Of a stretch of 64,000 nt of DNA, positions 41,201-44,200 are shown piece by piece (position 1 is the stretch's first letter; each line of letters begins with the position of its first letter). Position numbers and translations under genes: made by a program. Source of the DNA: Salvelinus alpinus (lineage: Eukaryota > Chordata > Actinopteri > Salmoniformes > Salmonidae); contig NC_092093.1 of the NCBI RefSeq assembly GCF_045679555.1, positions 63,996,890-64,060,889 on the forward strand, in the 5' to 3' direction. The notes under the pieces are model-generated. The model saw only the letters and a program-made list of their open reading frames with translations. It was not told where the DNA came from and searched no databases.

Positions 41201-44200
41201 GTTTGCACTGCGTGTGGCGGATTTTTAGTAGTGTGTGTGTGTGCAGGTGTGTGGAATGTCTTTTCTCCAGAGTGTGTGTAACTCCTCTGTTGTCCTGTCA
41301 GATCCTGTACAAGGAGTTCAGGGAAGGTCAGTACTACCTCGTCGACTCGGAGGTCTACACACACGACGTCCCGTACCACGACTACTTCTACACTCAGAAC
41401 CGCTACTGTATCATCCGCCATTCCAAACGCAAATGTCGACTCAGGTGAGCAGCAGAGACATCACAGCCTTTCGACATTGTTATCTGCTCAGTTTACTTTA
41501 GGGTAAAGACTTTCAGGGTATTGGGGTTGAGCTTCTCGCTGCGCTCACAGTCTCTTTGTTCAGTGCGATGTGCCTGTTACATGGTTTTGTGTGTCAAAGA
41601 CTAATCAATATCCCCTAGGAAAGGTCAATTACTATTGCAGGCCGGTGTGTTGTTGGTTCCCTTCTCCCTGATAGCTTTTGGTCAGAGTGAAAATCAGCAG
41701 TGCTGTCTGAACAGCCCTCCAGGACAGTATCCAGCTTTATTGGAGTCATTCCTCTAGTGGCATAAAGCCTTCTATTCTCATATCCTAGGTCTGTGACTTC
41801 ATAGCGCTTATTTGCTGTGTCCAGCAGTTGACAGACTTCTTTTAATAAATACTAAATGTTTGGTACTTCAGAGTTTGTGGTTACTAATTACCCATTACAG
41901 AATGTGAATATAGATAATTTGATTACTATTCAATTACAACTGTAGAGTTGATGTGCTGGTGTTGTGTGTTCAGGGTGTACACTGATGTGCTGGTGTTGTG
42001 TACACTGATGTGCTGGTGTTGTGTGTGTTCAGGGTGTACACTGATGTGCTGGTGTTGTGTGTGTTCAGGGTGTACACTGATGTGTTGTGTGTGTTCAGGG
42101 TGTACACTGATGTGCTGGTGTTGTGTGTGTTCAGGGTGTACACTGATGTGCTGGTGTTGTGTGTGTTCAGGGTGTACACTGATGTGCTGGTGTTGTGTGT
42201 GTTCAGGGTGTACACTGATGTGTTGGTGTTGTGTGTGTTCAGGGTGTACACTGATGTGTTGTGTGTTCAGGGTGTACACTGATGTGTTGTGTGTTCAGGG
42301 TGTACACTGATGTGAAGTACAAGAAGCAGCCGTGGGGGCTGGTCAAGTCCTTCATCACCAAGAACTCCTGGAGTGGCCTGGAGGACTACTTCAGACACCT
42401 GGGTGGGCAGTAGGCTGCTGCAGCCCTGGAGATCTCTTCACCCTTCTCTATATCTCTCTTTCCACTCCATCTTTAAGAATATCTGTCTGTCTTGTCCCCT
42501 CTTTCAATGTAGTTCTTCAAGTCTCTCCTCCTTGTTTGGCTGATCTCTCTGAGTGTATCTTCCTCTGAGGGCCTGTCTTCCTGCTTCCCCACTTCTCAAT
42601 CTCCAATTAGTCTCTCTGCCTGTGAGTGTTGGGTTAGCCATAATAGGCCCATGCTCTCTTTGTATGTTGGTGCTTCACTGGTTTCTGTCCAGCTCCCTCT
42701 CTCCTATACTGTATAACGACCAATCTCCCTACCCTTCCTCTGCTCTTCTCTTACTCACCCTCTCCAGTCTCGTTAGATTAGATCTGAATCAAAGCCCTGC
42801 ACTCACACTGACAGTCCAACTCTCCTCATGAGATGTCGATTAGCACCCAACCTCCCTACAGACTGCCCGGCAGTCCTCTCTACATCACCCCTACCACTTC
42901 TAGTCATCTATTGACCCCTGTCTTCCAAGCCATTTGACCCAACTTTTCATTTGACCCTATGTTATCACAGAATCTGAGCTGATGGAAGAGGAGGCGGAGC
43001 TGAACCAGGGATGCGGAGACCCCGGTAAGATGATTGGCGGGATGCGTCATTGGCGGAGGAGGACGTTCAGTCGGACACTACAGGAGCACCTGAAGCCCAG
43101 CAAGCAATGCGAGCCCGACCTAGACCCTCACAGAGAGGGCAAGACGGGTACATACATGTTCTGTTTATTTAACAACCATCTTCTGACACATGGATAACAT
43201 TACACGTACTATATGAGTGAATTGCACAAACACTCAATCAGTCAAATGGCCTACAATAGACACACAGTCATATGTCTTCCGTTCAAGCTGTTCCGCTCTC
43301 TCCCGGGTTGTGTGTCAGATCCCATAGATATGAAGGGTCCACCTCGATGGAACATCTCTACCATCATAGCTGGGATGAGCATCATGTAAGTCGACACCAC
43401 CAGTCAACACTCAAACAGTATAGCTGTAAATCTTCATGAACCTTTTCTATTGTTTGTGTACTTTCTTCAAATCAAATGTTATTTGTCACCTGCGCCAAAT
43501 ACAACAGGTGGAGACCTTAGTGAAATGCTTACTTACAAGCCCTTAACCAACAATGCAGTTTAAAAATAAAATACCTAAAAAGAATAAGAAATAAAATTTA
43601 CAAATAATTAAAGAGCAGCAGTAAAATAACAATAGCGAGGCTATATACAGGGGGTACCGGTACAGAGTCAATGTGCGGGGGCACCGGTTAGTCGAGGTAA
43701 TATGTAGGGATGCATGATATATCGGTGAACATATCGGAATCGGCAGATATGAGCTAAAATGCCAACATCGGTATTGGCCGATGTCTAGTTTAACGCCCCG
43801 ATGTGCAAAACCGATGACTAAACTGATGTGCATACCTAAATAACATAGGTACATGAAGTAATGACGCCACGTAAAATGTTGCGCTACATGTGCAACACAG
43901 CATTCCTAAACTAGCCCACAATGTCTGCTGTGTGGATCGAGCAGTTAATTGAAAGAGTAACAAAATTTCAGCGAGACAACTCAAAGGCGAAATCCATTAA
44001 AGCCAAGATAATGGTATTCATTACCCTTGACTATCAACTGTTCTCTGTCGTGAGTGATGTTGGCTTTCGCCGACTGGTCGAGTGCCGGTACACACTACCA
44101 AGTGCGCTATTTTTCAGACGTTGCTCTACCGGAGTTACACAGTAATAACGTCACTGCTATTAGCTTCATGACATACATACTATGGAATGCCGTTTGGGTT

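Follow-up and report, generated by a model that had tools for sequence, protein, structure and literature searches.

How does a gene keep its reading frame when the 3' splice site of one of its exons stands last in a row of near-identical copies of itself? The question is raised by GRAMD1C in a 64,000-nucleotide stretch of Salvelinus alpinus DNA (the window), in which the 21-mer TTCAG/GGTGTACACTGATGTG (the slash marks the splice junction) occurs ten times without a mismatch in one tandem array. An exact search of the whole 2.37-Gb genome gave 14 copies, these ten and four on contig C10, and its reversed-sequence control gave none. For TTCAGGGTGTACACTGATGTG, the exact copies begin at 41969, 42028, 42064, 42094, 42130, 42166, 42202, 42238, 42266 and 42294, in steps of 59, 36, 30, 36, 36, 36, 36, 28 and 28 bases, the first step comprising one unit and one unit without an acceptor. 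The original prediction had claimed ten such acceptors within less than 330 bases, in agreement with the ten exact copies and the 325 bases measured from first acceptor to last. Its unit steps of 36, 30 and 28 bp also stand, but the first step is 59 bp, and its limits of 41948 and 42313 have to be moved to 41949 and 42314, where both edges are clean and read TGATGTG. The features of the array and its exon are as follows.

41949..42314, forward strand: 3' splice-site modules repeated in tandem, beginning with the first TGATGTG, in the intron, and ending with the last, in the exon
41949..41982, forward strand: first unit (34 bp), of which the reversed C10 stretch has one identical copy, at 47651
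41972..42296, forward strand: nine upstream acceptors with copies of the exon start, each leading to an in-frame TGA if used
41995..42011, forward strand: unit variant without an acceptor, GTTGTGTACACTGATGT, found once in the C10 array too
42279..42283, forward strand: CTGAT in the last copied exon start, the branch point of the real acceptor as predicted from the motif only
42297..42298, forward strand: acceptor AG of the real GRAMD1C exon, its position and phase common to 7/7 GRAMD1-family exons found in the genome
42299..42402, forward strand: GRAMD1C exon, 34 residues, end of the VASt/ASTER domain, followed by a donor GT that was located by eye at 42403-42404

The gene had been named as GRAMD1C, and this assignment is borne out by its best solved-structure match, GRAM domain-containing protein 1C, and by the adjoining gene, ATP6V1A. 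Its joined exons match GRAM and VASt, the remaining exon limits having been set by eye. The real junction likewise lies at the end of the array, as had been proposed: the tenth copy is the opening of the exon at 42299, and the seven GRAMD1-family exons found in the genome all start AG/GGT in the same phase. Solved-structure chains of Aster-C and GRAMD1A cross this junction without an insert, and no boundary-spanning array was found at the five paralogous GRAMD1-family exons.

The window region recurs on contig C10 in largely collinear form, including a second GRAMD1C. Comparison with this duplicated copy, which the original prediction had proposed, gives 38 acceptors against 10 in the window (two gene copies being compared, not alleles), counted in the looser form TTNAG/GGTGTACACTGATG, with 35 reading TTCAG and 3 TTAAG. 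The C10 array consists chiefly of 24-bp units, in blocks interrupted by units of 32 and 41 bp, and the units adjoining the exon measure 32, 34 and 32 bp. The 24-bp unit type occurs 28 times in C10 and is absent from the window copy, while the GTGTTGTGTGTGTTCAG unit type occurs seven times in the window copy and is absent from C10. Both arrays, however, have the same left border, AGAGTTGATGTG, one 34-bp unit is identical between them, and the unit type without an acceptor is common to both, at differing array positions. Tandem repeats are frequently mis-sized in assemblies, which leaves some room for an assembly artefact or a local misassembly, but the C10 array has unit lengths of its own (24, 32, 34 and 41 bp) and the same left border. 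An artefact would not recur at the matching place of another contig, so we consider it very improbable that the array is an assembly accident.

From the shared left border and the shared unit types, the array probably predates the split between the two GRAMD1C genes, which we infer to be the salmonid genome duplication. Another way to view the similarity is that the two arrays arose independently, or that one was converted to the other, long after the copies had separated. The exon beside the array (42299-42403, including one donor base) is identical at 104 of 105 bases between the two copies, whereas identity over ten exon pieces that flank it, two of them perhaps the halves of a single exon, runs from 87 to 96% (1006/1096 bases). 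Under the rate of the other pieces, the exon's identity has P ~0.0013 before correction for 11 pieces; the near-identity may reflect either conversion through the array or strong constraint. The majority of unit types also differ between the copies, which speaks for this view too. Neither late process, however, fits comfortably with a common left border, an identical 34-bp unit and an acceptor-less variant that stands at different places in the two arrays, and we regard this explanation as doubtful.

How might such an array have begun? On the account that we propose, the starting material would have been TTGATGTG, which the intron has near its end, and CTGATGTG, which begins at the ninth base of the exon. 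If slippage or unequal exchange took place between the TGATGTG words of these two sequences, it would copy one complete 3' splice site, that is, the branch-point word, the GU-rich tract, TTCAG and the exon start, and would account for TGATGTG at both edges of the array. A single exchange between these words would yield a 34-bp piece, matching the unit common to both genes, and this event would probably have preceded the separation of the two GRAMD1C copies. With every unit added later, the copied CTGAT could then provide the acceptor that follows it with a branch point. However many units were gained or lost, a complete site would remain before the exon, so that the array could be tolerated.

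We examined the consequence of using each acceptor by reading on from the preceding exon, which ends CGACTCAG at 41445. In the window copy, the first bases after the AG of the nine upstream acceptors are 41974, 42033, 42069, 42099, 42135, 42171, 42207, 42243 and 42271. All nine readings run into TGA, seven within the array and two at exon base +10. That every upstream acceptor would end at a TGA had been predicted and is upheld, with the amendment that the 59-bp step places the first acceptor in a third frame, which still reaches a stop. The argument that only the last site is productive therefore holds as a matter of reading frame: as read from the sequence, the last acceptor alone among the ten keeps the frame. 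In the C10 copy, 37 of 37 upstream acceptors also stop, at 24 TAA and 11 TGA codons within the array and at two TGA codons in the exon. When unit order was shuffled (1000 times for each copy), no upstream acceptor was left open in 224 shuffles for the window copy and 143 for C10. The all-stop result is thus only mildly unusual, and only suggestive of selection. At the exon start, both wrong frames are stopped by base 17 in 2/2 GRAMD1C copies; among the paralogous exons, 0/5 have both stops and 2/5 have one.

Branch points usually lie within the AG-free zone before an acceptor, at 20-40 nt upstream, and an AG within ~12-15 nt of the branch point may be bypassed (PMC2991248). Ahead of the real acceptor, the AG-free zone measures 26 nt and contains three adenines and one YTNAY match, CTGAT, whose predicted branch-point A at 42282 lies 16 nt ahead of the acceptor G. 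This predicted spacing is short. Nine of the ten window acceptors have one YTNAY match in their AG-free zone and the remaining one has two; the largest distances for the nine upstream acceptors, in order, are 22, 47 (second match 24), 24, 18, 24, 24, 24, 24 and 16 nt, the first acceptor having the intron's own TTGAT in front. In C10, the branch-point word stands at 12 nt for 31 of 38 acceptors and at 20-29 nt for seven, including the last four. Judged by these motifs, it is probably the copied coding bases that provide the branch points. The tract of the last window acceptor is GU-rich and 60% pyrimidine, within a range of 55-90% over ten acceptors of the gene (the last array acceptor included; placed by eye). 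Local signals do not favour the last acceptor, with a predicted branch point at 16 nt compared with 24 nt at five upstream acceptors, and if anything would favour those upstream. RNA structure was considered separately as an acceptor selector and set aside, positions 41940-42360 giving z +3.09, with 100 of 100 shuffles folding at least as well.

The closest described systems are the lancelet mirages, known from Adh3, the globins BflGb6 and BflGb9, troponin C and PGBD5, for which RT-PCR and other data are reported to show regular splicing undisturbed (PMC3087553, PMC3902484). Like them, the GRAMD1C array is a minisatellite-like tandem duplication of an intron-exon boundary, beside the authentic exon and with splice signals in many units: the tandem unit holds the intron end, the splice site and the exon start, the last unit runs into the authentic boundary at 42299, and units are homogenised within each cluster when the window and C10 copies are compared. 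BflGb6, in the account given there, similarly repeats the 3' intron end and exon start, one haplotype having 6 units and another 3. GRAMD1C differs in being a vertebrate gene, in having up to 38 acceptors and in an array probably common to two duplicate genes; its acceptors are spaced at 24-59 bp, compared with reported units of 150-160 bp in the lancelet globins and 10-72 bp in Adh3. Within salmonids, trout irak3 resembles GRAMD1C in repeating an exon start just before the exon, the first 15-17 nt of exon 5 being repeated four times directly upstream of it, and this repeat is listed among the coding repeats in both trout irak3 genes (PMC6763605). It concerns another gene, however, with fewer copies, and in the part of that paper drawn on here it is given one sentence, with neither name nor mechanism.

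Other arrangements are more distant. Searches of the literature, mostly made without the gene name, found no description of the GRAMD1C array, and among the titles listed for GRAMD1C and salmon none concerned it. Human IFI6 (6-16, G1P3) reportedly contains, from a 1995 study, a minisatellite with multiple splice donor sites, so that both genes have minisatellites with many splice-site copies, on the donor side in IFI6 and on the acceptor side in GRAMD1C. In NAGNAG tandem acceptors, the AGs share one branch point. As in GRAMD1C, these AGs compete at one intron end, but they are described as lying a few bases apart (PMC2875228), whereas those of GRAMD1C are 24-59 bases apart, each with its own predicted branch point. 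Classification as a NAGNAG acceptor, which requires AGs 3 nt apart, was rejected on the window's spacing of 28-59. The original prediction that a minisatellite of this form was undescribed at this locus is consistent with these searches as far as the locus goes, but the form itself is known from the lancelet mirages and trout irak3. What is new is the GRAMD1C locus, the two further arrays in the window described below and the probable age of the array relative to the copy split; compared with the known kind, copy number is larger and a history shared by two duplicate genes is likely. The branch-point and microhomology account is our proposal, and is absent from the mirage and irak3 accounts to the extent that they are cited here.

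We favour the reading, at a probability of about 0.65, that this is a mirage-type minisatellite, born from TGATGTG words before the copy split and carried as a tolerated passenger at the cost of some wasteful splicing. The last acceptor would give a working mRNA, while use of an upstream one would give a premature stop and, probably, decay of the message. Against this reading, a linear scan starting at the first branch point would choose the first acceptor, and gene conversion could explain the units shared with C10, given the contrast between 104/105 and 1006/1096. Transcripts of trout irak3 (variants b', c'' and f) are also reported to arise from upstream alternative acceptors and to end early at premature stops, not necessarily at the repeated exon. 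The same transcripts lend something to a different view, in which the array is a working control element whose upstream acceptors are used frequently, with stops and decay following, so that array length sets the share of message lost. The stops at 9/9 and 37/37 upstream acceptors agree with this view, the two shuffle frequencies giving ~0.03 jointly if independent, as do the early stops in both wrong frames that set the two GRAMD1C exons apart from their five paralogues and the better branch-point spacing of the upstream acceptors compared with the last one in the window. The control by shuffling is weak, however, the lancelet mirages reportedly leave splicing intact, and the 12-nt spacing of 31 C10 acceptors falls inside the bypass range of PMC2991248. 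We therefore consider a control element unlikely, and retain the tolerated minisatellite as the preferred reading.

The GRAMD1C exon is not the only boundary of this kind in the window.

34134..34255, forward strand: second GRAMD1C boundary array, two upstream 44-bp copies leading into the GRAM-domain exon at 34248
23566..23819, forward strand: left part of an ATP6V1A array, six TTATAG/G(G)ACCC units
26992..27135, forward strand: right part of the ATP6V1A array, where the real last exon begins at 27129 after two upstream units

The array at the GRAM-domain exon has one upstream copy in C10, and the sequence at its upstream acceptors is altered. The last exon of ATP6V1A is preceded by eight CTGTTATAG sites, of which six lie at 23604-23805 and the other two at 27049 and 27087. 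The bases after each site are GACCC, GGACCC or AACCC, and the units repeat the acceptor and ~7 exon bases. The two groups are split by other sequence with transposase-like open frames. The C10 copy of this exon has a single CTGTTTCAG/GACCCAGTG, and the ATP6V1A array is thus known from the window copy only. As a control on the base rate of boundary arrays, TRF output for 54 other records was judged by eye, and none of the 54 had a unit made of an acceptor and an exon start. This control is weak: it comprised 14 GRAMD1/VASt records (several overlapping), 30 kinase records from 146 reported matches, many in long open frames, and 10 myosin places hand-picked from those listed among 155 reported matches, the GRAMD1C records (L001-L012, L018-L023, L026 and L027) being excluded. 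The nearest case, L014, was a GT-rich 14-bp repeat of 2.8 copies that runs up to, but does not take in, the acceptor of a GRAMD1 paralogue.

The window also contains repeats of other kinds. A 43-bp repeat at 62372-62505 has 3 copies, and ~17 (by eye) in the C10 duplicate; a 50-bp repeat at 48326-48925 has 12 copies with 97% matches, and no counterpart among the listed C10 alignments of at least 70 bp; an 18-bp repeat at 63120-63998 has 49 copies and runs to the window end. Minus-strand transposase-like open frames were noted by eye at 35101-36185 in a GRAMD1C intron and at 24152-25185 in an ATP6V1A intron.

A bolder possibility, to which we give little credence, is that the array acts as a copy-number dial for GRAMD1C output, which both duplicates would have retained since the salmonid genome duplication. 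If so, each unit would on its own be a complete decoy acceptor that leads to a stop, with copied coding bases as branch points, unit number and spacing would set the surviving share of GRAMD1C message, and the three boundary arrays in 64 kb would be a visible case of a common salmonid process.

With 10 and 38 near-identical competing acceptors in two duplicate vertebrate genes, this locus offers a test of first-AG scanning against exon definition. The array suggests that coding sequence at an exon start can find a second use as a branch point, and that arrays of this kind may begin by a simple route based on microhomology. It also calls for caution in gene annotation, where exon starts are ambiguous at boundary arrays. 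If boundary arrays are common in salmonids, then they would contribute to splicing variability in the wake of genome duplication.
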